Assembly: GCF_022200785.1 (NCBI RefSeq)
Contig: NZ_CP087585.1
Location: 620,001 to 684,000, forward strand
Direction of reading: 5' to 3'
Origin: Pedobacter mucosus
GTDB taxonomy: Bacteria; Bacteroidota; Bacteroidia; Sphingobacteriales; Sphingobacteriaceae
Length of the DNA stretch: 64,000 nucleotides
This document shows, one piece after another, positions 35,212 to 62,356 of the stretch. A program made the position numbers and the translations under genes. The notes beneath the pieces were generated by a model that saw only the letters and a program-made list of their open reading frames with translations, was not told the DNA's origin and did no database searches. Numbering within the stretch: position 1 is the stretch's first letter; each line of letters opens with the position of its first letter.

Positions 35212-35255
35212 CAAAATTCAGTATTGACCGCTGTTTTGGGAATGATGCCCGTCAT
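35212..35255 (-). promoter_or_regulatory. FNR-like operator and -7 box of the AraC-like gene
   Basis: Operator ATGAT-GCCC-GTCAT at 35242-35255 (centre 35248.5). The minus-strand -7 box GAatTTTG has its core at 35212-35215 (centre 35213.5), spacing exactly 35 bp. Confidence 0.8.
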
Positions 35256-35476
35256 GCGGATTATAGACGTTCATCATCAGCCTACTTAAGATGATAGGCC
35301 ATTAAATGAGTGGTTATGCAGGTTGAGTTTTTTTTTTGATTAAAGGCAACGCTTATTGTGAATCCTGCAACGCTTTACTTTAAGGTGCAACACATAAGCT
35401 TAACAGACAGGCAGCCTTTAATTATTCCTTTTGCTAGATTTTTGGCCTTAAGGGGAAAGTTAATCAAAAATTAAAT

Positions 35477-36218
35477 ATGACAAAACTACTGGATAAATTG
35501 TATTCAGTTCCGGGGGAACTTGGGAATTGGTAAGGCAGCAACATTGGAAGTTGCACGTGAAGGTCTACAGCTGTTATCGCCAATCTGGTCGGATCAGACC
35601 ATCATAAGAGCCTGGAGGAGATCTTCGCCTTGGGAGGAGAATCCCTTTTGTACCCATTGATGTCTCTGATGTAGAAAGTGTTAAACTGGCCATCAGTTCG
35701 ACCGTTTTAAAGTTCGGTAGGCTTGACGTAGCTTTCAATAATAATGTGGGAATCGGCGCAGCCTCTTCGGGCATACATGATCTTCCCGACGAGGTATGGA
35801 ACAGGGTAATCTCGATTATTCTGACCGGGTCAGTTTTATTGTGTCAAATATGAACTTCATTAGTTTTTAAAACAAGGCGGTGGCCTAATCATAAATATGT
35901 CCTCTCTGGGGGGCTCAAAGCTGAACATGGCTTGGTTCCATACACAGCCGCAAAGCATGGTGTACTCGGAATCACCAAACATATAGCCGATCAATATGCT
36001 GACCAAAACATCCGAGCAAATGCAATTTGTCTCTATTATATAGAAACTCTACTGATCAATTCCACAAAGGAAATTCATCAAGCCTGGATTGAAGGTAACC
36101 ATCCAAGAGACTGGGTAGAGCGGAAGAAGTGACCAACGCGTTTATTTATCTTGCCTGTGATGATTCCAGTTATTGTAACCGAACACAGACCATTCTGGAT
36201 GGCGTCGTGATGGCGTAA
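35477..36218 (+). pseudogene. Short-chain dehydrogenase, multiply disrupted
   Basis: SDR pieces are readable in alternating frames. The glycine-rich T-G-x-x-x-G-I-G motif is damaged near 35505; L-D-V-A-F-N-N-N-V-G-I-G near 35735 is the N-N-A-G region, and Y-T-A-A-K-H-G-V-L-G-I-T-K near 35940 is the Y-x-x-x-K site. The end Y-C-N-R-T-Q-T-I-L-D-G near 36170 is typical. At least three frameshifts and stops separate them. Adjacent to BON and regulator genes. It was likely of the same type as the intact SDR at 47078. Confidence 0.85.
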
Positions 36219-36300
36219 CATATTGATATATCTCTACACTGATTTTTTAGTATTTGCTCGTCATCAGCATTTTCATCATTGATGAACATCTTATCCCGGC

Positions 36301-36344
36301 ATGACCTGCATCATTTGGGAAGGGAAAGAATAATCAGACCTTTA
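36301..36344 (+). promoter_or_regulatory. FNR-like operator and -7 box of the BON-ALDH unit
   Basis: Operator ATGAC-CTGC-ATCAT at 36301-36314 (centre 36307.5). -7 box GAccTTTA at 36337-36344, core centre 36342.5, spacing 35 bp. A second weaker match TTGAT-GAAC-ATCTT lies at 36279-36292, 22 bp upstream, the same 57-bp position used elsewhere. Confidence 0.8.
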
Positions 36345-36455
36345 TCAGATTAATAATTTCAATACGTGTCTACGGGAACTTCCAGGTACAAAATGGACAG
36401 CGCAACGTACAAAATAATAAAGGAGGCCATTCACCGGATAATAATTCAACAGCAA

Positions 36456-37115
36456 ATGAAACACAATGAAACACTAAAAAATGAAGTAATGGAGGCTATA
36501 AGGCTCGAGCCATTACTTAATACAGCACAGATAGAGGTTAACACAGATGAAGGCATCGTTACCTTATCGGGAACGGTTGACAGCTACGTTAAAAAAAGAG
36601 CAGCTGAACATGTTGTAGGCAAGGTTCCCGGTGTGCGAGCAGTAGCGGAAAAGATCAAGGTTAAATTCGGAGCGGATGATACTAAAACCGATGAAGCCTT
36701 GGCATCGGAGATATTGAAAGCTTTACAGTTCACCCCAGGTTTACTCAAGTACAGTATAAGCGTACTTGTTGAGGACGGCTGGGTTACGCTTGTGGGGAAA
36801 GTCAAATGGATCGCCCAGAAAGAGGAGGTGGAAAGAGCAGTCCATCATCTTTCAGGGGTAAGGATGATTACCAATAATATAAGCATCCGTTCCGAAAGAG
36901 AAGATGATGTTGAAAAGGCGACTATAAAGAATGCATTTCTGAGAAACTGGGCTATAGATGATCAGGAAATCGAAGTTTCCGTTCTTGGAAACCAGGTGAC
37001 CTTGATGGGGAAAGTACATTCCCTTTATCAGCGCAATACCGCAGAACGGATTGCCTGGAACGCACCTGGAGTTTGTAACGTACATAATAAACTGACCATA
37101 GAATACCCCGATTAA
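36456..37115 (+). CDS. Triple BON-domain protein, 219 aa
   Basis: Third BON paralogue. ATG 36456 (M-K-H-N-E-T-L) is chosen because the other copies start alike; an upstream in-frame GTG at 36366 would add 30 atypical residues. Repeats carry I-V-T-L-S-G-T-V, W-V-T-L-V-G-K-V and Q-V-T-L-M-G-K-V. The ending W-N-A-P-G-V-C-N-V-H-N matches the copy at 59960 most closely (W-N-A-P-G-V-W-N-V-H-N). It is followed 63 bp later by the aldehyde dehydrogenase gene and is under a strong FNR-like operator. Confidence 0.9.
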   Translation: MKHNETLKNEVMEAIRLEPLLNTAQIEVNTDEGIVTLSGTVDSYVKKRAAEHVVGKVPGVRAVAEKIKVKFGADDTKTDEALASEILKALQFTPGLLKYSISVLVEDGWVTLVGKVKWIAQKEEVERAVHHLSGVRMITNNISIRSEREDDVEKATIKNAFLRNWAIDDQEIEVSVLGNQVTLMGKVHSLYQRNTAERIAWNAPGVCNVHNKLTIEYPD

Positions 37116-37178
37116 TGATCCAAGAATAGCTATTATCAGTTAACTAAAAATATATAACAAATACCTTAATTTTTAAAC

Positions 37179-38562: not shown

Positions 38563-38579
38563 TATCATTAATAAATATT

Positions 38580-38620
38580 AATGCCTTTTCTAATCCTTAA
38601 CCGGTTGGGGAAGGCATTTT
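38580..38620 (+). terminator. Terminator after the aldehyde dehydrogenase
   Basis: aatgcctt (38580-38587) pairs with aaggcatt (38611-38618) across a 23-nt loop, followed by ttattttg. Confidence 0.6.
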
Positions 38621-38683
38621 ATTTTGCAGATCAAAAACCATATAAATATATAAACCGGGCGTTTATTAAGTAAAGCGACGGAT

Positions 38684-39424: not shown

Positions 39425-39430
39425 ATTTTT

Positions 39431-40120: not shown

Positions 40121-40171
40121 AATTGATCTGATTTAACTATTTAATTGCTATACTGGTCGTTATTGTTGTTG

Positions 40172-41161: not shown

Positions 41162-41166
41162 AATAC

Positions 41167-41946: not shown

Positions 41947-41951
41947 AGCCG

Positions 41952-42722: not shown

Positions 42723-42819
42723 ATATGTTGTATTTTAATTGGACTGTAAGTATTGAAACTCCTTATCCGAAAACTAGTTGATGAATGATCCTTTCTAGCA
42801 GAAAGAGATCCTTTTGATG

Positions 42820-42882
42820 CAAAATTGCCTTTTTATTAGTTTTAAAGATTATGGAATTCTTCTAATTTATTATATGATTCAC
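42820..42882 (-). promoter_or_regulatory. Type-2 motif promoter of the mlaEFD operon
   Basis: Minus-strand GTGAATCATATAAT (42869-42882, centre 42875.5) lies 54 bp upstream of the core of CAatTTTG (core at 42820-42823), about 98 bp before the mlaE ATG. Confidence 0.5.
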
Positions 42883-42884
42883 AC

Positions 42885-45756: not shown

Positions 45757-45778
45757 ATAGGTTAACAATATGGGAAGA

Positions 45779-45841: not shown

Positions 45842-45890
45842 ACATTTCTATTTCTCCGCGGGATAACTGTGTCGGAAATCATGCCTCACC

Positions 45891-45934
45891 TTGATGATCA
45901 TCATTGGCCCGTGCCCCGTGATTCCCAACATTTG
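45891..45934 (+). promoter_or_regulatory. FNR-like operator and -7 box of the USP gene at 46038
   Basis: Operator TTGAT-GATC-ATCAT at 45891-45904 (centre 45897.5). This is the closest match in the window to the E. coli FNR site TTGAT-N4-ATCAA. AAcaTTTG at 45927-45934, core centre 45932.5, spacing 35 bp. Confidence 0.8.
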
Positions 45935-46037
45935 TATATCAAAAGATAAATCAATGAAACCATCATGATTTCCAAAGCCAAAGTGGGACTAATAAATCAT
46001 GATAGCTTCATCACCAAAAAAAACAAATCATAAAGGG

Positions 46038-46910
46038 ATGAAAAAAATACTCATAGCTACAGATTTTTCGGTAGCTGCGGATGACGCCGCCAGATATGCT
46101 ATAAGTCTTGCCCGCAAAATCAGGACCGATACCGTACTTATTAACGCAGCGACAGTTACCACGGACTCTCCAGTGGAGGTTTTGTGGCCTATGGAAGATT
46201 ACCAGACGCTCATCAAGCGTACAGATATCCGTCTGAAAGATCTTTCAAAAGCATTATTGGAAAGTATGCCCGAGCCTGCGGAAAATACCCCAGACTGTCC
46301 AAAGATTTCTATCAAGTCTGACCTGGGATCTGTGACCGATCTGCTAAGGGAAACTGTCCAGCAGGAAGGAATAGGTATCGTGGTCATGGGACTCTCTGGT
46401 GCGGGAAATATGAAACGCTTTATCCTTGGCAGCAGCAGCCGCGAGGTAATCGATTCTGCGGATTATCCCGTACTTCTTATCCCAAAAGGCACCCCTTTTA
46501 AGCCTGTCCGGAAAATTGCCTTTGCAACCGATCTCGGTCTAGATGACATGGAGGCCATCCAGGCTGTAGCTTCGTTTGCCGGCCTGCTAAATGCGGAGCT
46601 GCTTATCGTACATGTAATCGGGAAGAACATCGATAAAGGTATGACCGGGCGCATTGATGCTTTTATGAGCGAGGTTAAAAATAAGATCAATTATGACCGA
46701 ATTTATTATGAGAATGTATACCGATTTAAAGTAGAGGATGGTCTAGAATGGTTAAAGGATCACGGCGAAACGGATTTATTGGTCATGGTTCACCGAAGAC
46801 GTGGTGTTATGAATGACTTCGTAAACGGAAGCCATGCCCAGAAGATGGCGCGTCAGACAAAACTCCCCTTACTGGTCATACCCGAAGGTTATCTGGGTAC
46901 GATTTGCTGA
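46038..46910 (+). CDS. Tandem universal stress protein, 290 aa
   Basis: Two USP domains: residues 1-150 and 155-290. The start M-K-K-I-L-I-A-T-D-F-S at 46038 has a purine-rich aaaggg just upstream; the upstream in-frame ATG at 45999 adds 13 atypical residues. In domain 1, V-M-G-L-S-G-A-G-N and G-S-S-S-R-E-V match the ATP-binding G-x2-G-x9-G-S pattern. Domain 2 keeps the I-A-F-A-T-D-L start but lacks a clear nucleotide loop (H-R-R-R-G-V-M-N-D-F-V-N-G-S-H). Linked to hypoxia survival in other bacteria. Confidence 0.92.
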   Translation: MKKILIATDFSVAADDAARYAISLARKIRTDTVLINAATVTTDSPVEVLWPMEDYQTLIKRTDIRLKDLSKALLESMPEPAENTPDCPKISIKSDLGSVTDLLRETVQQEGIGIVVMGLSGAGNMKRFILGSSSREVIDSADYPVLLIPKGTPFKPVRKIAFATDLGLDDMEAIQAVASFAGLLNAELLIVHVIGKNIDKGMTGRIDAFMSEVKNKINYDRIYYENVYRFKVEDGLEWLKDHGETDLLVMVHRRRGVMNDFVNGSHAQKMARQTKLPLLVIPEGYLGTIC

Positions 46911-47013
46911 TCAACAAACTTCTTGTTTTTGAACCATTGAACCGGCCTTTCTTCCTGCTAATTGTACAATTGCTGAAAAGGTTGTGCGCTAATGTTTTTT
47001 ATCACGCGCAACG

Positions 47014-47057
47014 GTGATCTAGGTCATGGTACTTCCTTTGCGATCCACTTAGATTTG
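47014..47057 (+). promoter_or_regulatory. FNR-like operator and -7 box of the SDR-CbpA unit
   Basis: Operator GTGAT-CTAG-GTCAT at 47014-47027 (centre 47020.5). A perfect -7 box TAgaTTTG at 47050-47057, core centre 47055.5, spacing 35 bp. ATG follows at 47078. Confidence 0.85.
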
Positions 47058-47077: not shown

Positions 47078-47818
47078 ATGAAAGGAAAAACAGTAATCAT
47101 TACCGGAGGTGCTTCCGGAATCGGAAAAGCTACAGCCGGATTATTTGCGCAGGCAGGCGCAAACGTGATCATTTCAGATATAGACAAACTTCAGGGAGAT
47201 CAACTCGCCCGAGAAATTGTTTCAAATGGAGGAATTGCCTCTTTTTATACAACAGATGTAGCCATACCAGCGCAGATGGAAGCCCTTGTTCACTACGCGG
47301 TGGAGACATATGGTAAACTGGATATTGCCGTGAACAATGCGGGAATCGGAGGCGAACAGAATACCATCACAGATATGAGCCTGGAGGGCTGGCAGAAAAT
47401 AATATCCATTAACCTCAGCAGTGTTTTTTACGGTATGAAATACCAGATTGCAGCTATGCTGAAAAGTGGCGGAGGCAGTGTAATTAATATTTCTTCAATA
47501 CTTGGGGCAGTAGGTTTTGCCAGCTCCGCAGGATACAGCGCGGCAAAGCATGGCATAATCGGATTGACCCAGACAGCTGCACTTGAATATTCTGCCAAGA
47601 ATATCCGCATTAATGCAGTTGGCCCGGGCTTTATTGATACGCCCCTGCTGAATGCAATGGATGCTGAAATGAAAAACCAGTTAATTGCCATGCACCCTAT
47701 TGGCCGTTTGGGCAAAAGTGGGGAAGTAGCTGAGCTGATATTATGGCTCGGAAGCGAAAAGGCTTCATTTGTGACGGGAAGCTACTATCCTATTGACGGC
47801 GGATATCTTTCCAAATAG
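47078..47818 (+). CDS. Short-chain dehydrogenase/reductase, 246 aa
   Basis: Classical SDR: T-G-G-A-S-G-I-G at residues 9-16, D-I-D at 37 (NAD preference), N-N-A-G near 87, the catalytic Ser in I-N-I-S-S near 140 and Y-S-A-A-K near 153. The end V-T-G-S-Y-Y-P-I-D-G-G-Y is typical of glucose dehydrogenase-like SDRs. It starts a unit followed after 30 bp by the CbpA-like gene. The operator upstream ties it to the oxygen-responsive set. Its broken relative is at 35477-36218. Confidence 0.92.
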   Translation: MKGKTVIITGGASGIGKATAGLFAQAGANVIISDIDKLQGDQLAREIVSNGGIASFYTTDVAIPAQMEALVHYAVETYGKLDIAVNNAGIGGEQNTITDMSLEGWQKIISINLSSVFYGMKYQIAAMLKSGGGSVINISSILGAVGFASSAGYSAAKHGIIGLTQTAALEYSAKNIRINAVGPGFIDTPLLNAMDAEMKNQLIAMHPIGRLGKSGEVAELILWLGSEKASFVTGSYYPIDGGYLSK

Positions 47819-47848
47819 CTTTTTACCATACAGGCTCACCCAAATACA

Positions 47849-48734
47849 ATGGAGTATATAGATTACTATCAGTTGCTCGGTATTACCAAAGCGGCGACAG
47901 CTACTGAGGTTAAAACCGCATACCGAAAATTTGCCCGCAAATACCATCCGGACCTTAATCCGGACAATAAAGAAGCCGAGCAGAAGTTCAAAGCGATCAA
48001 TGAAGCCAACGAGGTTTTAAGCGATCCTGAAAAACGTAAGAAATACGATAAATACGGGAATGACTGGAAAAATGCCGAACAATTTGAAAAAGCAGGGCAA
48101 CATCAGCAACAAACCCATCAGGGGCAAAACGCGGGACAATCATTCGGTACTGATGATTTTTCTGAATTCTTTGAATCCATGTATGGAGCAGGTAACCGGG
48201 GCAGGCAGACCAAATTCCGCGGAAAGGATCTCAATGCTGAGGTTAATCTTAATCTAAGGGATATCTATGAAAGCCGGAAACAGACCTTAACGGTGAATGG
48301 TAAGCAGATCAGGCTTACTTTTCCTGCAGGAATAGAAAATGGACAGATCATCAAGATAAAAGATCATGGTAGCCTGGGAGCCAATGGCGGACCTAACGGG
48401 GATCTTTATATCACCTTTCTGGTTAAGAACGATACCCCCGTTTAAAAGAAACGGAAATAATCTGCATCTCGATGTTGATCTTGACCTATATAAAGCTATG
48501 TTGGGCGGAGAGATTTTTGTCGAAACATTTAACGGGAAGGTAAAACTGAAAGTAGCACCCGGGACACAGAGCGAAACAAAAGTAAAACTGAAAGGGAAGG
48601 GTTTCCCCATCTACAAAAAAGAAAATGAGTATGGCGATCTTTACATTACCTTCAAGGTAAAGCTCCCATCAAATCTTTCTGAGCGGGAAAAAGAATTGTT
48701 CACCGAATTAAGCAACATCAGAAATGGAAACTGA
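47849..48734 (+). pseudogene. cbpA: CbpA/DnaJ-type co-chaperone split by a 1-base insertion
   Basis: A J-domain at residues 3-68 has the H-P-D motif (K-Y-H-P-D-L-N). After a Gly/Gln/His-rich linker, C-terminal domain I begins near 120 ([10 protein letters not shown]). At a C5 run near 48437 the frame ends prematurely (N-D-T-P-V); with one C removed it continues [13 protein letters not shown] through domain II to TGA at 48734, about 295 residues. Length and order then equal CbpA, which lacks the zinc-finger of DnaJ. It overlaps the cbpM-like gene by 11 bp. Sequencing error or recent mutation are both possible. Confidence 0.88.
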
Positions 48735-51823: not shown

Positions 51824-52873
51824 TTAATTCTTCATTTTGGAGAGTCCATTAAGGTCCAGTAGGGTAATACGAGAACCGATCCGGTCTATCAATTTTTCAT
51901 CCTTGAAATCTGAAAGCGTTCGGCTAACCGTTTCGGTAGCCATGCAGGCCATCGCAGCTAGATCCTCCCTGGTAATGGTGAAAAAATCATTTTTCATATC
52001 CTTGCTGTGCAGCTTAACCAGTGTCCCGGCCATTTTTTTTCTGACCGAATGATAGGCCAGTTGCAGTAGCTGATCCTCTTTTTCACGGTTGTCCCTGGAA
52101 AGCAGATGGATAAATTTCCTGGAAACCTCAGGATATAGATTAAAAACACTTTCCATCTGCTCGGTAGGTATCAAACAGAGCAGGCTATCTTCAATTGTGG
52201 TTGCCGTATCGGCATAAGTGCTTCCGCTTAACACCGCATTTATTCCGATATAATCTCCTTCGGAATACATTCCGGTCATAAGCTCACGGCCGTCCTGGGC
52301 CAGCTTAATGGTTTTGACCCTACCGCTCGTAATCAGGTAAAGCCCTTTTCCATGGTCGTCCTCATAATAGATGACCTGGTTTTTTTTGAATTCCCTGCTT
52401 TTTCTCCCCTCGATGATCTTATTGAATTCTGCAAGACCATCAGTTTTAGCCACAAGGACCGCAAATTCTGCTGAATTGGTTTTGTGCAGGTCTGCCGCCA
52501 CTGCTTTTTTTCTCAATCTGATATCGATTGCGTTGAGCAGCTCCATGTCGTCAAATGGCTTGATCAGATAATCATCAGCGCCCAGTTCCATTCCCTTTCG
52601 AAGGTCTGCATGTTCCGCCTTCGCAGTCAGGAAAATAAAGGGTATTCCAGAAGTCTCCACATGTTTGTTGAGCATGTACAGCACGCCATATCCATCCAGT
52701 TCTGGCATCATAATGTCGCATAAAATGATATCCGGTATGTTGGTTAGTGCCATATCAACACCGATCTTTCCGTTTTCTGCCTGAAATACGGTATAGCGGG
52801 CCATCTCTAAAATTTCTACCACGTTTGCGCGGATGGCATCATGATCTTCAATGATCAGTATTTTCTTGCTCAT
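51824..52873 (-). CDS. Response regulator with CRP/FNR-type output (REC-CRP fusion, copy 2)
   Basis: 349 residues from ATG 52873; a TTG 9 bp upstream is rejected. Receiver D53 in L-C-D-I-M-M-P-E, the same as copy 1, and K105; then a cNMP-like barrel (about 150-245) and a winged HTH with recognition helix A-T-E-T-V-S-R (E314, S317, R318). No Cys cluster. It lies 5 bp after the FixL-type kinase stop, in one operon with it. Paralogue of 13596-14630, about half identical by eye, suggesting an old duplication of the whole sensor-regulator pair. Confidence 0.93.
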   Translation of the reverse strand: MSKKILIIEDHDAIRANVVEILEMARYTVFQAENGKIGVDMALTNIPDIILCDIMMPELDGYGVLYMLNKHVETSGIPFIFLTAKAEHADLRKGMELGADDYLIKPFDDMELLNAIDIRLRKKAVAADLHKTNSAEFAVLVAKTDGLAEFNKIIEGRKSREFKKNQVIYYEDDHGKGLYLITSGRVKTIKLAQDGRELMTGMYSEGDYIGINAVLSGSTYADTATTIEDSLLCLIPTEQMESVFNLYPEVSRKFIHLLSRDNREKEDQLLQLAYHSVRKKMAGTLVKLHSKDMKNDFFTITREDLAAMACMATETVSRTLSDFKDEKLIDRIGSRITLLDLNGLSKMKN

Positions 52874-52878
52874 GTTTA

Positions 52879-54066
52879 TCAATTTTGTGGAAAGGTTAGT
52901 GTAAATAATGTGCCCCGGTTGACTCTGCTCCTGAAATTGACCTTGCCGTTCATCAGCCCAGTGTATCTGGAAAGGATGCTCAGACCAAGCCCATTTCCGG
53001 AAATATTGCCTGTATTATGAGCCCTGAAAAATGCTTCAAAAAGATGTTTATGATCATTATCTGGAATACCAATGCCATTATCACAGATCCTGATGGAAAA
53101 GTTGTTTTCATTGATCTTGGTATAGAATTGGATTTTGCTGTCATCTCCCGAATATTTGATTGCATTATCGATGAGTATCACGATACAGTTCTTAAGCAGG
53201 TTCTGATCCAGGTTGATCATTAGGCCAGGTCCCCGGTGCTTAAAGATAATCTTCTGTTTTCCCTTGAGCGTAATCTGCATTTCTCGGGCAATCTCCTCGG
53301 CCATTTCCGAGAGATTGAAGTGGCTGAGCTGTGGCTGGACCATTCCTGAATCAAGTTTTTCTAGCGAAAGAAAATCATTGAGTATGGCCGTAATATTAAG
53401 TACCGCATCCTTGATCTTGACAACATGCTTTCCAATACTCTCTCTATCCTGGTTTTCTGCATATCGGTCAATGAGCGATGCGGAAAGCTGTACCATGCTC
53501 AAGGGCGTCCGGAATTCGTGGGATGCAATGGATACAAACCTGCTTTTGAGCTGGCCAAGTTCCTTTTCCTTGTTAAGGGAATGATTTAGATCATCCTGGG
53601 TTTTTTGCAGGGCCTTCACGCTCGTTTTTAGTGAATGTGTTCTTTCCTCAACCTGTTCTTCCAGTAATGCTGCATAATCCTGTAATTTCCCTTCAGCTTC
53701 TTTTTCCCTGGTCAGATCATGTATAAAGCCTGCATAGATAATTCTTCCGGAATATTTAACCTCGCTAACGCCAAGCCGAAAAGGGAACTGGCTCCCGTTT
53801 TTCTTAAGTCCTACCAGTTCTCTACCGATACCAATGATGCTGGCATTTCCTGTTTTTTTATACTGAAAAAGGTAGCCGTCATGTCGGGCCCGGTCTGGCT
53901 GCGGCATCAACATGGCGATATTCTGGCCCACGACCTCCTCCTGGGAATAGTGAAAGAGCTTACATGCAGATGGATTTATGGATTCAATAATCCCACGGTC
54001 GTCAATGGTAATCAGCCCGTCTATTGCATTTTCAATGATTGCTTTCAGCAATACGGTGTTTTCCAT
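52879..54066 (-). CDS. FixL-type haem-PAS oxygen-sensor histidine kinase (copy 2)
   Basis: 395 residues, same layout as copy 1. The PAS motif P-Q-P-D-R-A-R-H-D-G-Y has the haem-ligand H62, and I-I-G-I-G-R provides R82 at +20, the O2-contacting position. HisKA H183 lies in A-S-H-E-F-R-T-P; HATPase boxes V-I-L-I-D-N-A-I-K-Y, D-N-G-I-G-I-P and G-N-G-L-G-L-S are present. Soluble, with a coiled-coil linker. Residues around H62 differ enough from copy 1 (S-R-H-D-S-Y against A-R-H-D-G-Y) to allow a different O2 affinity. Divergent from acetate kinase. Confidence 0.92.
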   Translation of the reverse strand: MENTVLLKAIIENAIDGLITIDDRGIIESINPSACKLFHYSQEEVVGQNIAMLMPQPDRARHDGYLFQYKKTGNASIIGIGRELVGLKKNGSQFPFRLGVSEVKYSGRIIYAGFIHDLTREKEAEGKLQDYAALLEEQVEERTHSLKTSVKALQKTQDDLNHSLNKEKELGQLKSRFVSIASHEFRTPLSMVQLSASLIDRYAENQDRESIGKHVVKIKDAVLNITAILNDFLSLEKLDSGMVQPQLSHFNLSEMAEEIAREMQITLKGKQKIIFKHRGPGLMINLDQNLLKNCIVILIDNAIKYSGDDSKIQFYTKINENNFSIRICDNGIGIPDNDHKHLFEAFFRAHNTGNISGNGLGLSILSRYTGLMNGKVNFRSRVNRGTLFTLTFPQN

Positions 54067-54194: not shown

Positions 54195-54260
54195 GTGATG
54201 GTAATCATTATTCGCTTGGGGCAAGGTCATTTTGGACGGCTCACCCCTGAGGTACCTTTG
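54195..54260 (+). promoter_or_regulatory. FNR-like operator and -7 box of the acetate-kinase operon
   Basis: Operator GTGAT-GGTA-ATCAT at 54195-54208 (centre 54201.5) and a perfect -7 box TAccTTTG at 54253-54260, core centre 54258.5, spacing 57 bp. At the 35-bp position (54217-54230) the right half GTCAT is kept but the left half is lost. The site lies in the gap shared with the divergent FixL-type kinase. Confidence 0.65.
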
Positions 54261-54315: not shown

Positions 54316-55557
54316 ATGGACAAGGATTTACAATTAACCGGGGAGCATTTTATATTGGTACTCAATTCAGGATCGTCAAGCCTAAAATTTGCGGTTTATC
54401 ACCAGGCGACTGGGCATAGGCAATGGTCGGGCGTGATAAAAGGGATAGGTAGGCCAATGGGTACTATGGATTTAACCGATAGCCACGGAGATTCTACGGC
54501 CTTAAAAAAAGAATATTACCGGAACATTGAGGATGCTGCAGTTGCAATAATCAGGTGGCTCAAGGAAAACAAGAAACACTGCCTGATCTCCGCCATTGGT
54601 TACCGTTTGGTACAGGGGGGAGCAGCGCACCGAAGACCTGAGATCATTACTGAAAAATTATTGGAGGATTTAAAAGAACTCATCTTTTTAGCCCCCAATC
54701 ACCTGCCTGACGAGCTCAGACTTATCAATACTTTTCTGATGGAGTTTTCAGCCCTTAAGCATGTAGCATGTTTTGATACCAACTTTCACCGGGATATGCC
54801 CGATCAGAATAAATATTACGCACTTCCAGTTGAATATAAGGATCAGGGCTTGATGAGGTATGGTTTTCATGGCCTTTCTTATGAATACATCATGCAAAAA
54901 CTAAATCACCACCTTGCATCCATTGATAAAAAAAAGATCATCATAGCCCATCTAGGTAATGGTTCAAGTATGGCAGCTGTTGCATTGGGAAAGGGTTTTG
55001 ACACAACTATGGGCGTTAGCCCAATGGGGGGGATGGTAATGGCCACACGCTGTGGAGACCTTGATCCTGGTGCTTTGTTGTTTATACTCAAGCAAAATGA
55101 TATTACCCCTGAGGAACTTGATGTTGAGCTCAGCAAGGAATCAGGACTCAAGGCCATTGCCGGAACGGGTGATATGGAAGAGATTCTGAATAGCCTTCGT
55201 AATAACAAAAAAGCGGAAGCCGCACTAACCCTTTATTGCCATCAGGCTAAGAAATTCATTGGCTCACTTGCGGCCTCGCTAGGGGGGCTGGATATGCTTA
55301 TCTTCACAGGAGGCATCGGGCAAAATTCCCCGGAGGTCAGAGAGCGGATCTGTACCGGCATGGATTTCATGGGAGTAAAAATTGACCATTGCCTTAATCA
55401 GGATGCTAGAAAGATCATATCCCATCGGAACAGCCGCGTTAATATCTGGGTAATGGCTACCAATGAAGAATATGTGATTGCAATGCATACTAAGGATTTT
55501 TTATTACATGATGAGCGAAATAAATCGTCATCTGTACTTTACGACGCAAAAACATAG
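54316..55557 (+). CDS. ackA: Acetate kinase
   Basis: Converts acetyl-P plus ADP to acetate plus ATP. The 413 residues match the family. N-S-G-S-S-S-L-K-F near residue 18 and H-L-G-N-G-S-S near 216 are the acetokinase signatures. F-D-T-N-F-H near 155 is a catalytic-site block and F-T-G-G-I-G-Q-N-S-P-E-V-R near 335 is present. With phosphoketolase (26979-29363) it completes a two-enzyme ATP-yielding bypass that needs neither pyruvate dehydrogenase nor phosphotransacetylase. A cation ATPase gene follows after 5 bp. Confidence 0.95.
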   Translation: MDKDLQLTGEHFILVLNSGSSSLKFAVYHQATGHRQWSGVIKGIGRPMGTMDLTDSHGDSTALKKEYYRNIEDAAVAIIRWLKENKKHCLISAIGYRLVQGGAAHRRPEIITEKLLEDLKELIFLAPNHLPDELRLINTFLMEFSALKHVACFDTNFHRDMPDQNKYYALPVEYKDQGLMRYGFHGLSYEYIMQKLNHHLASIDKKKIIIAHLGNGSSMAAVALGKGFDTTMGVSPMGGMVMATRCGDLDPGALLFILKQNDITPEELDVELSKESGLKAIAGTGDMEEILNSLRNNKKAEAALTLYCHQAKKFIGSLAASLGGLDMLIFTGGIGQNSPEVRERICTGMDFMGVKIDHCLNQDARKIISHRNSRVNIWVMATNEEYVIAMHTKDFLLHDERNKSSSVLYDAKT

Positions 55558-55562
55558 ATCTT

Positions 55563-58283
55563 ATGGACATTGAGTATCCTATTGAAGCAGCTTATTCACT
55601 AAAGGTTGAGAGTCTGCTAAATGCCCTTTTAACAAATCAGCAGAATGGCATCAGCGGAGCGGAGGCCGGTATACGATCAAAGCGGTTCGGACTTAATATT
55701 TACAAAAGCCAAAAGCAGAAAAGCCTATGGCGTATGGCTTTTGAGCAGTTCAATAGTCCGATAGTCTATCTTCTTTTTCTCGCAAGCCTTGCCTCTCTGT
55801 ATTTCAAAAATCCGGTAGAAGCGATCGCTATATTTATAGTTATTCTAGTTAACGCTATGATCGGTTTTTTTATGGAACTGCAGGCCAGAAGTTCTATGCG
55901 TGCCTTAAGGGAAATGGATGTTAGCTATTCCAGAATAATAAGGGGCGGTAAAAAAAGCGAAATCCCATCTGAGCAGCTTACCCCGGGAGATCTGGTAGTG
56001 CTGGAAGCGGGCGATGTGGTTTCGGGCGACGGACGGATCGTGCATATCAATGGTCTTCAGGTTGATGAGTCTTCTCTTACAGGGGAGTCTTTTCCTGTCT
56101 TTAAAACAGTCGAAACATTGAACGCTGATACAGAACCTTCAGCCGCCCTAAACATGGTTTACAAGGGAACATCAGTAATAAATGGAAATGCTAAAGTAAT
56201 CATTACAGGGATTGCTGAAAATACAGCGCTCGGAAAGATCAGTGAGCTAGTTGGACGCTCCGCACCAACAAAAACGCCTCTTGACATTAAGATCAGCAAA
56301 CTGACCAAAAAACTGATCTGGATTACCCTGATAATGACCGGCATTTTTGCTATTTCAGGAATAATCGAGCGAAAACCCTGGCTACAGATACTGGAAACCT
56401 CTATAGCGCTGGCGGTTGCAGCGTTTCCTGAGGGGCTTCCAATTGTTGCTACCGTAGCGCTTGCGTATGGGATGCTGTTAATGGCCAGAAAGAATGCAAT
56501 AGTGAAAAAATTATCATCGGTAGAAACCCTTGGAGGGGTAAACGTTATCTTGACTGATAAGACAGGCACACTGACCGAAAATAAGATTTTTGTTGAGGTA
56601 CTCTCTTTCCCTGAGGAAGAACTGAATGTTTCGATAAATAAGGGAATACTTGAATATAAGGGAGCCAGGGTTGAAAGAAGCCAGGAGAATTTTGAACTGC
56701 TTGTCCGGATCGGTAGTCTTTGCAATGATGCATCATTTGAGGGGGCAGACAAAGGAAAAAAATCTTCCGGTGATCCTATCGAAATTGCACTGTTGATTCT
56801 TGCCGGTGCTGCAGGATTTCATGCAGAAAACAATATCGGTGAATTTAAGCGGATATCTGAAATGCCTTTCAGCTCTGAGACCAAGATCATGGGCACCCTG
56901 CACAAGGGAAAAACTAATTTTTTTGTCTCTGCAAAGGGATCTGTAGAAGATTTGCTGTCAAAGTGCAAAAAGATCCAACTCGGCAGTGCTCAAGGGAATT
57001 TGGATGGCAGTGGAAGAGAAAAAATCCTTTCGCGGGCAGAAGCCCTTTCCTCATCCGGTCTTCGGGTGCTTGCTTTTGCTTACCTGATATCGACTGAAAG
57101 ACCCGGGGATAATTATCTCCAGGAACTCATTTACGTTGGGATGGTCAGCTTTTTGGATCCGCCCAGAACCGACATAAAAGATGCGATCAGCGCCTGCCAT
57201 TCAGCAGGTATCAGGATTGTCATGATCACAGGAGACCATCCGATGACTGCATTGAACATTGCCAAAAAGGTAGGCATAACCGCGCTGGAAGATAATAAGG
57301 TAATCGCGGGGAGCGAACTGCCTGAAATGGAACTTCTTGGAGATGAATGGAAAGAGCGGATTCTTTCCACCACTGTATTTGCAAGGACAACACCTAAGCA
57401 GAAACTGGAAATTGTTGATGTCTATCAAAAGGCAGGCTATATAGTGGCGATGACCGGAGATGGTGTAAATGATGCACCCGCCCTTAAAAAAGCAGATGTA
57501 GGCATCGCAATGGGACTTAGGGGAACACAGGTGGCTAAGGAAACCGCGAGTATTGTACTTAAAGATGATTCTTTTACTTCTATTTCTCAGGCCGTAGCCC
57601 ATGGAAGGGAAATCTTTCAGAATATTCAGCGCTTTGTAATCTATCTGGTATCCTGCAACCTCAGCGAAATTTTTATTGTTACCCTACTTGGTTTTTTTGC
57701 TCAGGGATCTATGCTATTTCCATTACAGATTTTATTTCTCAACATGGTTACTGACGTATTTCCTGCCCTTGCACTTGGGTTAGGCAAAGGGGATTCTACT
57801 ATTATGCAAAGGCCACCTAGAGACCCCAGAATGGATATTGTCTCTAGCCGAAACTGGATGGTCATATTGATCTATGCCCTGATGATGACCTGTTCTGTAT
57901 TGCTGTCTATTTTCCTTTGCAGGATTTATGTGGGTAGCGATGTAAGGGTAATTAATAATGTAGCTTTTCTAACCCTGGCATCCTCACAGCTTTTTCATGT
58001 TTTTAATATGTCATCTCTGCATTCGGGAATGCTGGGCAATGAGGTAACCAAAAACAAATTTGTATGGATTGCCCTTCTGCTCTGCTTTTTTCTAATCGCA
58101 GTCGTCTACCTGTTTCAACAAAGCCGTGATGCACTAAATCTTGATATAATCCCATTTCAGGCATGGGTTCTCGCAGGCCTTTCCAGCATGCTTCCTTTAG
58201 TATTGGTGCAGCTTTATAAGCTGGTATTTAAAAAAAGATCTATACCTGGTTGTTCCAAAAAAACTTTAGTACGACCGGCTTAA
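55563..58283 (+). CDS. P2-type cation-transporting ATPase
   Basis: 906-residue pump of the SERCA/PMCA-like class. N-terminal cation-ATPase domain (about 1-75), T-G-E-S near 172, P-E-G-L-P in span M4 near 295, D-K-T-G-T-L-T near 334, G-D-G-V-N-D-A-P near 635 and N-M-V-T-D near 725 in M6. P-E-G-L-P with N-L-S-E suggests Ca2+ (or Mg2+, Na+) export rather than proton pumping; the ion cannot be fixed from motifs. It shares an operon with ackA (5-bp gap), so ATP made by acetate kinase and an ATP-driven pump are induced together. Confidence 0.92.
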   Translation: MDIEYPIEAAYSLKVESLLNALLTNQQNGISGAEAGIRSKRFGLNIYKSQKQKSLWRMAFEQFNSPIVYLLFLASLASLYFKNPVEAIAIFIVILVNAMIGFFMELQARSSMRALREMDVSYSRIIRGGKKSEIPSEQLTPGDLVVLEAGDVVSGDGRIVHINGLQVDESSLTGESFPVFKTVETLNADTEPSAALNMVYKGTSVINGNAKVIITGIAENTALGKISELVGRSAPTKTPLDIKISKLTKKLIWITLIMTGIFAISGIIERKPWLQILETSIALAVAAFPEGLPIVATVALAYGMLLMARKNAIVKKLSSVETLGGVNVILTDKTGTLTENKIFVEVLSFPEEELNVSINKGILEYKGARVERSQENFELLVRIGSLCNDASFEGADKGKKSSGDPIEIALLILAGAAGFHAENNIGEFKRISEMPFSSETKIMGTLHKGKTNFFVSAKGSVEDLLSKCKKIQLGSAQGNLDGSGREKILSRAEALSSSGLRVLAFAYLISTERPGDNYLQELIYVGMVSFLDPPRTDIKDAISACHSAGIRIVMITGDHPMTALNIAKKVGITALEDNKVIAGSELPEMELLGDEWKERILSTTVFARTTPKQKLEIVDVYQKAGYIVAMTGDGVNDAPALKKADVGIAMGLRGTQVAKETASIVLKDDSFTSISQAVAHGREIFQNIQRFVIYLVSCNLSEIFIVTLLGFFAQGSMLFPLQILFLNMVTDVFPALALGLGKGDSTIMQRPPRDPRMDIVSSRNWMVILIYALMMTCSVLLSIFLCRIYVGSDVRVINNVAFLTLASSQLFHVFNMSSLHSGMLGNEVTKNKFVWIALLLCFFLIAVVYLFQQSRDALNLDIIPFQAWVLAGLSSMLPLVLVQLYKLVFKKRSIPGCSKKTLVRPA

Positions 58284-58320
58284 TTAAAAAGGGTTTTACT
58301 GATGATAAACATTTGCAAAG

Positions 58321-58364
58321 GTGACCACTATCACGGCGGACAATATTTATATTTTCCAATTTTA
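58321..58364 (+). promoter_or_regulatory. FNR-like operator and -7 box of the USP gene at 58411
   Basis: Operator GTGAC-CACT-ATCAC at 58321-58334 (centre 58327.5). CAatTTTA at 58357-58364, core centre 58362.5, spacing 35 bp. A gene call starting at the GTG here would be wrong because these bases are regulatory. Confidence 0.8.
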
Positions 58365-58410
58365 TAGGGTGGAAAAATACTATGGATTTGCCGCACTTAA
58401 CATAGAAAAA

Positions 58411-59286: not shown

Positions 59287-59334
59287 CATTGTAAGCCTCA
59301 GCCAGTAAGTTCGTGATGAATGTCTCCGTCGGCA

Positions 59335-59378
59335 ATGACGATCATCATTTCCTGGGCAGATGCTTAAGGCGATATTTA
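59335..59378 (+). promoter_or_regulatory. FNR-like operator and -7 box of the 59392 unit
   Basis: Operator ATGAC-GATC-ATCAT at 59335-59348 (centre 59341.5). GAtaTTTA at 59371-59378, core centre 59376.5, spacing 35 bp. ATG follows 14 bp after the box. Confidence 0.8.
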
Positions 59379-59391
59379 CAATAACATAAAA

Positions 59392-59640
59392 ATGGATTTA
59401 TATACTGCCTTTCAAATCGAACAGCATATTCAAGATGCCGGCAATTTGTGCGAGTCGGATTACCTGGAGCACCTTTCAAGAATAGAGGAAAAATTCCGGA
59501 TCTGGAAAAACAAGGACTTTTTGGAAAGGGCAACTATTTTCAAAAAGGTAGCCGCTTTAAGCAGAAACCATGGAGATAGTCTTTCTGAGTGGGTGGTAAG
59601 CGAAATGGGGATACTTCTCGAAAATAGTGAGGTAGGCTAA
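59392..59640 (+). CDS. Short protein matching the N-terminal region of aldehyde dehydrogenases, 82 aa
   Basis: F-R-I-W-K-N-K-D-F-L-E-R-A-T-I-F-K-K-V-A-A-L lines up with the A-F-Q-H-W-K-K-T-P-F-S-E-R-A-A-L-L-R-K segment of the aldehyde dehydrogenase at 37179, and V-S-E-M-G-I-L-L-E-N-S with L-E-M-G-K-L-L-A-Q-S. The catalytic and cofactor domains are absent; the frame stops right after this region. It is either an ALDH gene truncated with a new end or a free-standing domain kept for another use. It is first behind a strong operator, followed by SHOCT and BON genes. Confidence 0.65.
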   Translation: MDLYTAFQIEQHIQDAGNLCESDYLEHLSRIEEKFRIWKNKDFLERATIFKKVAALSRNHGDSLSEWVVSEMGILLENSEVG

Positions 59641-59687
59641 TATCCTGCAAAATATAAAAAAACTAATCACCCTTAAATAAACCCAAA

Positions 59688-59915
59688 ATGTTCTTTACAA
59701 ATCTTTTTTTTGGAATGGATTTTCTCTGGTGGATCTTATGGTCTGCATTACTGGTATGGATATTTCTTGTTCCATACGATATTCCCGGACAGCGCAACAG
59801 AAAACGCTCTGCAATACTCATCCTTCAGGAACGTTTTGCCAAAGGCGCAATTGATCTCAAGGAATATGAGCGGAACAAAAAAATATTGGAGCGTGATAAA
59901 ATCGGGCCATCATGA
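59688..59915 (+). CDS. SHOCT-domain membrane protein, 75 aa
   Basis: Paralogue of 32455-32670: membrane helix at residues 9-30 (M-D-F-L-W-W-I-L-W-S-A-L-L-V-W-I-F), P-G-Q-R-N-R-K, and a C-terminal short helix pair I-L-Q-E-R-F-A-K-G-A-I-D-L-K-E-Y. It follows the ALDH-like short gene by 47 bp and precedes BON by 44 bp, so all three likely share the operator at 59335. Confidence 0.85.
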   Translation: MFFTNLFFGMDFLWWILWSALLVWIFLVPYDIPGQRNRKRSAILILQERFAKGAIDLKEYERNKKILERDKIGPS

Positions 59916-59959
59916 TGAAGGCCGTCAGATTTAGTCCGCAGATCTTAAAAATTATAAAA

Positions 59960-60622
59960 ATGAGACACAACGAAAAATTACAGCTTGATGTGCTTGAGGC
60001 AATTAAGTGGGAACCCTTATTGCATGCTGCGGAGATTGGCGTAATTGCTCAGGAGGGAATTATTACCCTTACCGGTACAGTAGATAGCTATGCTAAAAAA
60101 AGAGAGGCAGAACATGCCGCCAAAACCGTTGCCGGAGTTCGTGCTGTGGTAGAGAAAATAGAGGTGGATTTTGGCGCCCACGGGAAGAAGACCGACCTGG
60201 AACTCGCTGCTGAAATCCTCAAGTCCATAAAACTTAATCCCGAAATTCCGCAGGATAAAATTTTTATCAAGGTTGAGAACAGCTGGGTCACAATAGAGGG
60301 AGAAGTAAAGTGGTATACACAGAAAGAGGCAGTTCAAAAATCAGTAGAGGTACTCTCCGGGATTAAGAACCTGACCAATAGCATACAGGTAAAATCAGAA
60401 ACTGCGGATGATGTCGAAAAGGTAGCAATTGAAAATGCACTTGTGCGGAACTGGGCAATTGATGATCATCATATTCTGGTGAATGTCTTCGGAAACCGGG
60501 TCACCCTGAGCGGTAAGGTAAAATCAATCTATCAGAAAGACGAGGCCGAGCGTATTGCCTGGAATGCACCAGGGGTCTGGAATGTTCACAACGAACTGCT
60601 TATCGATCATGCAACGATCTGA
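59960..60622 (+). CDS. Triple BON-domain protein, 220 aa
   Basis: Fourth BON paralogue, start M-R-H-N-E-K-L at 59960 by comparison with the other three; the ORF start at 59912 overlaps the SHOCT gene by 4 bp and adds 16 unusual residues. Repeats carry I-I-T-L-T-G-T-V, W-V-T-I-E-G-E-V and R-V-T-L-S-G-K-V. It is most like the copy at 36456 (N-H-I-L/W-A-I-D-D-H blocks). A small ORF overlaps its end by 14 bp. Confidence 0.9.
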   Translation: MRHNEKLQLDVLEAIKWEPLLHAAEIGVIAQEGIITLTGTVDSYAKKREAEHAAKTVAGVRAVVEKIEVDFGAHGKKTDLELAAEILKSIKLNPEIPQDKIFIKVENSWVTIEGEVKWYTQKEAVQKSVEVLSGIKNLTNSIQVKSETADDVEKVAIENALVRNWAIDDHHILVNVFGNRVTLSGKVKSIYQKDEAERIAWNAPGVWNVHNELLIDHATI

Positions 60623-60812
60623 AAAAGATAATTCGGAAGATCATTCTATTGACTTTACAAGAATCTATCTCCGCTCGAGACTTGCGGTTTTAAACTGGGT
60701 GTCCAGTCGTTATCTACTAATCGAACTTTCCAGGCAATTAACCCTCTGGCCATACATGGCCTTTATGCTTTATGCAAAAAGGATATTGGGAATATCCAAA
60801 AATGACCCTTAA
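60609..60812 (+). CDS. Small protein of unknown function, 67 aa
   Basis: An ATG at 60609 overlaps the end of the BON gene by 14 bp and opens a frame rich in Arg and aromatic residues: F-T-R-I-Y-L-R-S-R-L, then W-P-Y-M-A-F-M-L-Y-A-K-R-I-L. It has no recognisable domain, and only one weak hydrophobic stretch near the C-terminus. The codon pattern looks coding, but no homologue comes to mind. Confidence 0.45.
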   Translation: MQRSEKDNSEDHSIDFTRIYLRSRLAVLNWVSSRYLLIELSRQLTLWPYMAFMLYAKRILGISKNDP

Positions 60813-60901
60813 ATTTCTTGGTTAGAAGCCTCTATGATGGGGCTAATCAATATATACGCTCCAGATTCGATTTTAGTTAGTGATGATAAACAATCTACAA
60901 C

Positions 60902-60945
60902 ATGATTGCCATCATTTAGTTTCCTTAGCGCTATACCGATATTTA
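60902..60945 (+). promoter_or_regulatory. FNR-like operator and -7 box of the USP gene at 60977
   Basis: Perfect palindrome ATGAT-TGCC-ATCAT at 60902-60915 (centre 60908.5). GAtaTTTA at 60938-60945, core centre 60943.5, spacing 35 bp. ATG at 60977. Confidence 0.85.
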
Positions 60946-60976
60946 TGGTCGGCAGCATGCTTAAACAATAATCCAA

Positions 60977-61807
60977 ATGAAAACAATACTTATCATCAAC
61001 GATCATACTCCGGAAGCAGAACATGCGGCCGGGTTTGCGCTCGTACTTGCCCAGCGTATGCGAGCGAACATCATCCTTGCCAGCAGTACGGAGCCCAAAC
61101 TTGATTTGCAACATTACGAATGGGCAGGGAGTTCCCACGATGAAACCATTGCAGAACCGGTCCATACCCCTTTGATGAAAAGGTTGTTCTGGAGGAAAAA
61201 ACTTCATCCAGGGTTCAGCCCGCTGATTCAGGAGGTTCAGCTTGATAATGATAGGGAAGGCCTTTTTCTGCTGGCATCAAGAAATGATATTTATATGGTG
61301 ATCAAAGGAATGGATGAGTTCCTGCCCCAGGCATTACTGAATGTAAACCTGGCCATTAATACCTTATTAGATAAGCTTCAGGTTCCCTTATTACTTGTTC
61401 CTTCCTCATGGTCCGAAAATGAATTTACCAGGCTGGTCTATCTGACCGATCTGCGTTTCTGTGGAATCGAAACGGTTAGATTTCTTGCGGATCTTGCAGG
61501 ATGCTGGAAAGCCAACCTCGTTATCGCACACACTTCAGCAAGCGGGCTTCCGGAAATGGAGGAGCAAGAGGCGGAGAATATTTTCAACCAGGAGGTGAGC
61601 CTAAATGTAGGTTATAAAAAGCTTTTCCTGAATATGCTGGACAAAAACGATGAGCTGAATACCCTTGAAATTATGGTAAGTGGAATGCAGGCTGATCTGT
61701 TGGTTCTGGTAAACCAGCATTTTCATTTCAACAGCCTAACCAAACAATATTTCAAAGATAAATGTGCACTATATAAGCCTGTGCCTTTGTTAATTTTTCC
61801 ATCCTGA
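60977..61807 (+). CDS. Divergent universal stress protein-like protein, 276 aa
   Basis: Tandem USP fold by layout: M-K-T-I-L-I-I-N-D-H-T-P-E-A-E-H-A-A-G-F at the start and L-V-Y-L-T-D-L near residue 153 opening the second domain, ending V-P-L-L-I-F-P. Both ATP-binding glycine loops are missing, so it should not bind ATP in the classical way. It has its own perfect operator and leads a unit with the 138-aa gene downstream (27 bp gap). Confidence 0.78.
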   Translation: MKTILIINDHTPEAEHAAGFALVLAQRMRANIILASSTEPKLDLQHYEWAGSSHDETIAEPVHTPLMKRLFWRKKLHPGFSPLIQEVQLDNDREGLFLLASRNDIYMVIKGMDEFLPQALLNVNLAINTLLDKLQVPLLLVPSSWSENEFTRLVYLTDLRFCGIETVRFLADLAGCWKANLVIAHTSASGLPEMEEQEAENIFNQEVSLNVGYKKLFLNMLDKNDELNTLEIMVSGMQADLLVLVNQHFHFNSLTKQYFKDKCALYKPVPLLIFPS

Positions 61808-61833
61808 CTCTCCTTAATCAGAACATTCTACTT

Positions 61834-62250
61834 ATGAACGACATAAACAGCACCTCTGCAGCGTATCGTCAATATCACGAAATAGCCAGACACTGGGCAT
61901 CGGATGTAGATTTTTTTAAGATTGAAACCGTTTTTCTGCACCACCTTTTAGACGATTATTTTATCCGGCTGTCAGGTCCTAATTATCTTGAAGCATTAAA
62001 AAGTGTAGGTACCAAATTATTGCAGCTTGAAAAGGATAAGTATAGTGCAGATATCCATCTGATTGAGCACCTTAAGAACCTGGAAGGGCAGACCGAAGAC
62101 CTGGTGTTTGACGGGGGCGAGTTCCTGGCAGAAAAGCATGAGCAGATGGAACATGCGATGACCCACCTGACAATGACTTACAGAACACTAAAAAAAGAAC
62201 TTTTTTTACTCATAGAGCAGGTTATAAAAGCTCAACGAGAAATATCATAA
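61834..62250 (+). CDS. Hypothetical helical protein, 138 aa
   Basis: No family recognised. All-helical and charged, with H-x3-H-x-type positions (Y-H-E-I-A-R-H-W, F-L-H-H-L-L-D-D-Y, K-H-E-Q-M-E-H-A-M-T-H). The spacing of these His, Glu and Asp residues would suit a four-helix bundle with a metal site, like hemerythrin-type or ferritin-like folds, but this is only a structural guess. It follows the divergent USP gene by 27 bp and ends the transcript before the hairpin at 62297. Confidence 0.65.
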   Translation: MNDINSTSAAYRQYHEIARHWASDVDFFKIETVFLHHLLDDYFIRLSGPNYLEALKSVGTKLLQLEKDKYSADIHLIEHLKNLEGQTEDLVFDGGEFLAEKHEQMEHAMTHLTMTYRTLKKELFLLIEQVIKAQREIS

Positions 62251-62296
62251 ACTCATAAACGGCCTTAAGTCTTCTGTCCATAGTATGGTGGTGTGC

Positions 62297-62320
62297 AAGG
62301 TCAGCCGAAAGGCTGACCTT
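62297..62320 (+). terminator. Hairpin between the 138-aa gene and the transpeptidase-like gene
   Basis: aaggtcagcc / ggctgacctt is a perfect 10-bp stem with a gaaa tetraloop. It lacks a T run. Its right arm overlaps the operator at 62313-62326. Confidence 0.6.
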
Positions 62321-62356
62321 AATCATTTCAGGAGAAAAGGATTAAGGCGAAATTTG
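62313..62356 (+). promoter_or_regulatory. FNR-like operator and -7 box of the transpeptidase-like gene
   Basis: Operator CTGAC-CTTA-ATCAT at 62313-62326 (centre 62319.5). GAaaTTTG at 62349-62356, core centre 62354.5, spacing 35 bp. ATG at 62412. Confidence 0.8.

Follow-up and report, generated by a model that had tools for sequence, protein, structure and literature searches.

The question raised by a 64,000-nucleotide stretch of the Pedobacter mucosus chromosome (RefSeq assembly GCF_022200785.1, contig NZ_CP087585.1, positions 620,001 to 684,000; hereafter the window) is whether a series of palindromic operators, each lying at a fixed distance from a promoter core, marks a regulon under one type of activator and, if so, which protein reads these operators and in response to which signal. 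A preliminary description proposed eight such operators at the class II position of FNR and CRP and called the set an oxygen-type regulon. We consider it likely that these promoters form a low-oxygen regulon controlled by a shortened FixL-type circuit, in which the FixJ and FixK roles are combined in one protein, and that this circuit activates a gene island resembling the lxa locus and the DosR regulon. The observations behind this reading are the geometry of the DNA, its conservation, the proximity to and co-occurrence with genes for regulators that join a receiver to a CRP-type protein (REC-CRP), and domain homologies. Judged from its sequence, this soil-type bacterium appears to switch on neighbouring low-oxygen survival genes via fixed-spacing twin operators. 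Coordinates below are window positions unless marked as genome positions; the genome comprises 4.93 Mb in one contig.

All eight proposed 14-mers of the TGAY-N4-RTCA type are present, at 35242, 36301, 45891, 47014, 58321, 59335, 60902, and 62313. In each case the operator centre lies exactly 35.0 bp from the centre of a TTTR core (a 23-base gap) and the core is preceded by nAnn, as had been claimed. Chance does not produce this arrangement at a comparable rate: 100 dinucleotide shuffles of the window gave a mean of 0.01 matches and a maximum of 1, against the 8 observed. The window holds 15 TGAYN4RTCA palindromes altogether, and the seven beyond the named ones have no core at the 35-bp spacing; among these seven, the palindrome at 54196 is the distal member of a pair, and that at 10472 may be another.

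Genome-wide, the exact combination of operator and nAnnTTTR core has 15 matches, of which nine fall in the 655-685 kb interval (genome), compared to 2 for the reversed pattern and 4 for a control in which the spacing is shifted by 2 bp (N25). Summed over gaps of 8 to 38 bases there are 184 matches, or about 5.9 per gap. Enrichment of the exact spacing is therefore seen in the cluster, while the six matches outside it stand at background level, which argues that the regulon is local, not global.

Alignment of the nine clustered promoters reveals a second block exactly 22 bp upstream of the proximal operator in all nine, and its T at -22, G at -21, and C at -12 never vary. This block is a second palindrome, placed two helical turns from the proximal operator. 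At 64428, just beyond the window, both operators are perfect, and the other eight clustered sites have a slightly degenerate distal operator. The second operator is absent from an exact-spacing match at 716243 (genome), which was dropped as a chance hit.

When up to 3 mismatches are allowed, the tandem pattern occurs 21 times in the genome (4 for the reversed control), and 18 of these matches, a number that includes three mirror readings and weak sites, fall in one 70-kb stretch at 630-700 kb (genome), with 3 elsewhere. The mirror readings, at 665839, 679283, and 684375 (genome), are reverse-strand readings of the same palindromes and were not counted as promoters. A weight matrix of the tandem site (see below), scanned over 110 kb around the window, identifies twelve promoters at 28-39 bits, after which scores drop to 16.9 and 16.2. 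The list of eight was thus incomplete: the sites at 14808, 19213, and 54218 belong to it, which brings the clear tandem promoters inside the window to 11, and the site at 64428 is the twelfth. A divergent pair at 699.1 kb (genome) reaches 16.2 bits, is weak, and is not claimed. The sites in the window are as follows.

14786-14850, plus strand: tandem promoter of 14870-15298 and hemN, absent from the preliminary description; distal operator 14786-14797, proximal operator 14808-14819 (3 mismatches in all), -7 box 14843-14850; 32.3 bits.
19191-19255, plus strand: tandem promoter of ccoNO (19288-21429), likewise absent; distal 19191-19202, proximal 19213-19224 (2 mismatches in all), -7 box 19248-19255; 37.1 bits.
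35212-35276, minus strand: tandem promoter of an AraC-like gene (34587-35207); distal 35265-35276 (1 mismatch), proximal 35243-35254, -7 box 35212-35219; 35.3 bits.
36280-36344, plus strand: tandem promoter of a BON gene (36366-37115); distal 36280-36291 (1 mismatch), proximal 36302-36313, -7 box 36337-36344; 28.0 bits.
45870-45934, plus strand: tandem promoter of USP1 (45999-46910); distal 45870-45881 (1 mismatch), proximal 45892-45903, -7 box 45927-45934; 28.9 bits.
46993-47057, plus strand: tandem promoter of SDR and DnaJ/CbpA-like genes (47078-48445); distal 46993-47004 (1 mismatch), proximal 47015-47026, -7 box 47050-47057 (full TAnnTTTG); 29.5 bits.
54196-54260, plus strand: tandem promoter of ackA and a cation ATPase gene (54316-58283), likewise absent; distal 54196-54207 (perfect), proximal 54218-54229 (degenerate), -7 box 54253-54260; 31.5 bits.
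58300-58364, plus strand: tandem promoter of USP2; distal 58300-58311 (1 mismatch), proximal 58322-58333, -7 box 58357-58364; 30.7 bits.
59314-59378, plus strand: tandem promoter of a unit of a small open reading frame (ORF), a SHOCT-like gene (by eye), and a BON gene (about 59393-60622); distal 59314-59325 (1 mismatch), proximal 59336-59347, -7 box 59371-59378; 32.2 bits.
60881-60945, plus strand: tandem promoter of a weakly USP-like gene (60977-61807) and 61834-62250; distal 60881-60892 (1 mismatch), proximal 60903-60914, -7 box 60938-60945; 35.1 bits.
62292-62356, plus strand: tandem promoter of a YkuD transpeptidase gene (62412-63914); distal 62292-62303 (2 mismatches), proximal 62314-62325, -7 box 62349-62356; 28.9 bits.
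10472-10536, plus strand: weak, doubtful tandem site before an ORF (10557-12326) with no NCBIfam match; 16.9 bits.

Most gene names given in the preliminary description are borne out by matches over the Pfam cut-offs, namely USP1, USP2, BON, SDR, DnaJ-type (CbpA), AraC-type HTH, and YkuD. The exceptions are the third USP gene, at 60977, whose Usp match is below threshold (18.6 bits against a cut-off of 24), unlike those of the genes at 45999 and 58411, and the SHOCT label, which is a by-eye reading. The coding start of USP2 is probably 58411, as the listed GTG at 58321 overlaps the operator. The promoter at 64428 precedes genes for a fumarase, a porin-type protein, a DASS anion symporter, and a membrane protein, followed by frd-type genes for a fumarate-reductase/succinate-dehydrogenase flavoprotein and Fe-S subunit (a fumC-DASS-frdA/B unit); the membrane gene (L017:4638) has no Pfam match over the cut-off, and we read it as a cytochrome b. 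Assignments over NCBIfam cut-offs comprise hemN (TIGR00538), ccoN, ccoO, ackA, fumC, and DASS.

The same geometry is found in relatives. We used the best 80 of 584 confirmed REC-CRP loci, taken from titled genome records, and compiled a histogram of operator-to-core gaps that involved no training. It peaks at gaps of 23 (128 sites) and 45 (172 sites), the latter being 23+22, and the other gaps from 0 to 60 hold 0-11 sites each except gap 20 (18) and gap 44 (31). The small peak at gap 20 is without explanation, and that at gap 44 may reflect a one-base shift of the -7 box. Among the 128 gap-23 sites, 75 carry TG-N8-C at 22 bp upstream, whereas none of the other offsets from 12 to 60 shows it more than 8 times. 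The weight matrix was built from 127 dereplicated sites selected such that one of the two operators fits the full consensus; most of its information comes from the two palindromes, the short T-tract that follows each of them, and the -7 box, and the linker is nearly random while the 22-bp spacing holds. At 22 bits or more, the matrix finds 303 sites in the 80 loci at the 22/23 geometry; the alternative distal spacings that were tried yield 0-15, and alternative -7 gaps 5-47. Sites of at least 22 bits occur in 78 of the 80 loci, on which the matrix was trained, including all 7 Flavobacterium loci.

A flavobacterial start-site map places the -7 box at -12 to -5 (PMC9723704), so the two operators would centre near -41.5 and -63.5. 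The predicted layout combines a class II site and, on the same face of the DNA, a class I-like partner. The model of the regulon is amended to two operators per promoter, a larger target list, and a single stretch of chromosome; the original observation is confirmed and strengthened, and the promoter code is exact and testable.

The strengths of operator and -7 box are not independent of each other. Of the 127 dereplicated sites, 33 fit the full operator consensus in the proximal operator only, 75 in the distal only, and 19 in both. A full TAnnTTTG box accompanies 1 of the 33 proximal-only sites and 38 of the 75 distal-only sites (P=6e-7), as well as 4 of the 19 perfect in both; in the window it is found in 1 of the 8 named sites and in all 3 added ones. 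We read this as a trade-off between proximal operator and -7 box that keeps activator-dependent promoters silent, and it suggests two promoter classes within one regulon.

Which proteins could read these promoters? Two pairs of kinase and regulator genes lie inside the window, as listed here, and a third pair lies at 707.3-709.6 kb (genome).

12381-13571, plus strand: HK1, FixL-like PAS histidine kinase 1 (PAS, HisKA, HATPase).
13596-14630, plus strand: RR1, REC-CRP regulator 1 (Response_reg, cNMP_binding, HTH_Crp_2).
51824-52882, minus strand: RR2, REC-CRP regulator 2 (REC-CRP domains).
52879-54066, minus strand: HK2, FixL-like PAS histidine kinase 2 (PAS, HisKA, HATPase).

The PAS domains of HK1 and HK2 match the FixL haem-PAS domain 1dp6 with E=2.3e-32 and E=1.5e-29, respectively (for HK1, RHDSY and GIGR are aligned). 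Both kinases align with FixL at the histidine and at the arginine of GIGR (GxGR), which we take to be the haem ligand and the O2 contact, and both have the HisKA and HATPase domains expected of a FixL-type kinase. An adjacent kinase with the haem motif is found in 61 of the 80 REC-CRP loci, a count that excludes one false match (L112) from the 62 returned by the script. The regulators join receiver, cNMP-type, and HTH_Crp_2 domains in a single chain, and matches to PF00027 and PF13545 over the cut-offs place them in the CRP/FNR superfamily. They differ from FNR proper, since the N-terminus is a receiver domain and by-eye reading of the translation finds no Cys cluster. The partner of the kinase is likewise not of the FixJ type but REC-cNMP-HTH_Crp, a statement about the kinase partner, since no genome search was aimed at a LuxR-type FixJ encoded at a distance. 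Recognition helices of the ExxSR type suit TGA-N6-TCA palindromes, as in FNR and FixK, and those of the three REC-CRPs read ETVSR, ETVSR, and ETISR.

The tandem pattern follows these regulators across genomes. Among 301 family genomes it occurs in 164 (498 sites), compared to 5 for the reversed control. Family genomes with an RR2-like protein have a mean of 3.31 sites (125 genomes), those with only an RR1-like protein 0.58 (121), and those with neither 0.25 (55), the boundary of 1e-103 between the two types having been chosen after inspecting the list. Within the genus, there are 88 sites in 25 genomes with an RR2-like protein (our own genome included), 31 in 38 with only an RR1-like protein, and 0 in 6 with none. 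In a phylum sample of 158 genomes, our own included, the pattern is present in 17 of 24 genomes with REC-CRP (16 of 23 when our own is excluded) and in 3 of 134 without; restricted to the class, the comparison is 17/24 versus 3/15 (Fisher P=0.003, or 0.007 excluding our own genome). Four genomes of one genus (G010, G033, G060, and G070; 1.7-2.0 Mb) share a near-identical AT-rich tandem site and have no REC-CRP match, which for G060 and G070 means absence among the matches listed. In these genomes another regulator may use the same geometry.

Several observations weigh against a REC-CRP-driven regulon as described here. The co-occurrence counts are not corrected for kinship, and exceptions run in both directions: 12 of the 55 family genomes without a REC-CRP match (E<=1e-40) and the 3 of 134 phylum genomes without one (1e-60) still carry the pattern, and an exact match is absent from 7 of the 24 REC-CRP genomes of the phylum sample. 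Nineteen of the 80 loci, some of them truncated, gave no adjacent kinase with the haem motif. In all eight named sites the distal operator departs from the full TGAYN4RTCA consensus (by 1 mismatch in seven and by 2 in one), and the matrix scan finds no tandem promoter before a phosphoketolase-aldolase-HAD unit (25957-30075) inside the island. Finally, the 303-site and 78/80 counts come from a matrix trained on the same 80 loci that it scored, for which reason the untrained gap histogram serves as the independent test.

The exceptions bear on the alternative that a plain FNR/CRP-family protein encoded elsewhere in the genome, such as the CxxC-bearing one at 119239-119925 (genome), recognizes the paired operators, with the REC-CRP genes being only neighbours or co-targets. 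Of the seven CRP-type HTH matches in the genome, four lie outside the REC-CRPs (one of these below the cut-off), and the protein at 119 kb (genome) carries a CxxC close to the N-terminus and a helix of the E..R form; further evidence against our reading is that 7 of the 20 phylum genomes with the pattern, among them 2 of the 3 without REC-CRP, encode homologues of this CxxC FNR-like protein, which may thus read similar sites in some lineages. We nevertheless regard this alternative as unlikely. A CxxC FNR-like protein is found in only 10 of the 158 genomes (E<=1e-30), and just 5 of the 17 genomes that combine the pattern with REC-CRP encode one, whereas REC-CRP is found in 17 of the 20 pattern-positive genomes and its loci hold the high-scoring sites noted above. 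Moreover, the helix of the CxxC protein is ETVFR and not ExxSR; the other helices outside the REC-CRPs are ENVIR, ETVIR, and ESLSR, the last belonging to the below-cut-off match at 3944641 (genome), which does have ExxSR. It is rather improbable, too, that the regulon is real and its signal is not O2, the PAS kinase sensing redox, nitric oxide (NO), or another ligand via haem, or not being a haem protein. NO and carbon monoxide (CO) also bind FixL-type haem, and USPs and BON proteins are general stress genes, but the close FixL match with the presumed haem-ligand and O2-contact residues aligned, the recurrence of the motif in relatives' loci, and the presence of cbb3, hemN, and the fumarate-reductase/succinate-dehydrogenase flavoprotein among the targets favour oxygen. 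As to the upstream element, it might be the site of another factor or the relic of a duplication, leaving simple class II promoters, and the proximal operator alone does fit the full consensus in 33 of 127 sites and in all eight named ones. We hold this to be very improbable, given that the distal box is the same palindrome, that the distal operator alone fits in 75 of the 127 and both fit in 19 (selection required one fit), and that the 22-bp spacing is kept although the linker is nearly random.

The proposal of an oxygen-type regulon under a CRP/FNR-class activator at the predicted class II position therefore appears sound, on the evidence of FixL-like haem-PAS kinases, REC-CRPs, targets of the hemN, cbb3, ackA, fumarase, and fumarate-reductase type, and a spacing kept in relatives. 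For sensing, phosphotransfer, binding, activation, and start sites we infer the following sequence of events. At low O2, the FixL-like haem-PAS kinase would lose O2, autophosphorylate, and phosphorylate the receiver of the fused REC-CRP activator, which would cover the roles of both FixJ and FixK. The phosphorylated receiver may favour paired dimers, such that neighbouring TGAY-N4-RTCA palindromes 22 bp apart are each occupied by an activator dimer, both on one face of the DNA. The proximal dimer (about -41.5) would overlap the place of the -33 element and contact polymerase as a class II activator, the distal dimer (about -63.5) would act as a class I-like or cooperative partner, and RNA polymerase would thereby be recruited to an often weak -7 box. 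The predicted outcome is expression of micro-oxic respiration (cbb3, hemN), acetate-yielding fermentation (ackA), survival proteins (USP, BON, transpeptidase), and, probably, fumarate respiration. According to a study in a Flavobacterium, oxygen limitation raises cbb3 oxidase and haem-synthesis genes (PMC9723704), a response that fits the proposed circuit but is no test of it. A bolder generalization, which we put forward tentatively and at somewhat less than even chances, is that many Bacteroidota sense oxygen in a single step, a FixL-type kinase passing its phosphate straight to a CRP/FNR activator that is fused to a receiver; in two adjacent dimers these receivers would pair on the DNA and thereby fix the 22-bp spacing, phosphorylation-dependent cooperativity rather than an Fe-S cluster or cAMP would be the switch, and the strength of the proximal operator versus that of the -7 box would set how tightly each gene is off.

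Related systems are known in other bacteria. In the rhizobial FixLJ-FixK cascade, FixJ is a REC-LuxR-type regulator that activates a separate fixK gene. The DosS/T-DosR system of mycobacteria also has a haem sensor kinase, a response regulator, a USP-rich hypoxia regulon, and paired operators, but DosR is of the LuxR/NarL type, with an unrelated motif and no CRP fold. FixLJ-FixK is similar to the present system in its haem-PAS FixL-type kinase, its FNR/FixK-type palindrome near -40, and its cbb3 and hemN-type targets (PMC4999443 in part); the system described here differs in the fusion of the FixJ and FixK roles in one REC-CRP protein, the 22-bp tandem operators, and the Bacteroidota -7 box. 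The lxa locus of Burkholderia cenocepacia is described as a low-oxygen-induced cluster with six USPs and a BON protein and a suspected Anr/FixK-like regulator, and is likened there to the DosR regulon (PMC6127331). USP and BON genes are present here as well, in a cluster whose induction at low oxygen is predicted; compared to lxa, which belongs to another phylum, it has REC-CRP genes inside the cluster and tandem-operator promoters. Two-component control of cbb3, hemN, and USP genes is also reported for the NmpRSTU oxygen-utilisation regulon of Myxococcus xanthus (PMC11841059), whose regulator is NtrC-like and not of the CRP fold. NtrC-like regulators follow sigma-54 logic. Among the matches listed in the open-access literature, to which the search was confined, there is neither a described oxygen regulator of this kind in Bacteroidota nor a described Pedobacter low-oxygen USP regulon of this kind.

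If the proposed circuit is true, it would extend a FixL-type oxygen circuit with an lxa/DosR-like survival island to Sphingobacteriaceae and Flavobacterium, and would offer a natural promoter set for asking how phosphorylation switches a CRP-fold activator. Ordinary soil strains would suffice to test what the analysis provides: a putative sensor and regulator, the targets listed above, and an exact promoter code.

Some further observations concern the surroundings of these genes. With regard to autoregulation of the HK2-RR2 pair, no site lies before HK2 in the window, and 23 sites precede HK2-like ORFs in relatives. Phosphoketolase homologues in relatives' loci are preceded by 3 tandem sites. 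The region of the third pair (L018:7341-11834; genome 707341-711834) contains the FixL-like and REC-CRP genes, followed by an ORF that is HemN-like by eye, has no Pfam match, and seems to be without the radical-SAM cysteines, and by a short CcoI-like fragment with a sub-threshold ATPase-cat_bd match. It adjoins a Resolvase-domain recombinase gene (L018:5454-7061) and lies in lower-GC DNA (0.349 for L018); perhaps it is a decayed duplicate of the 12381-19039 block of the window.

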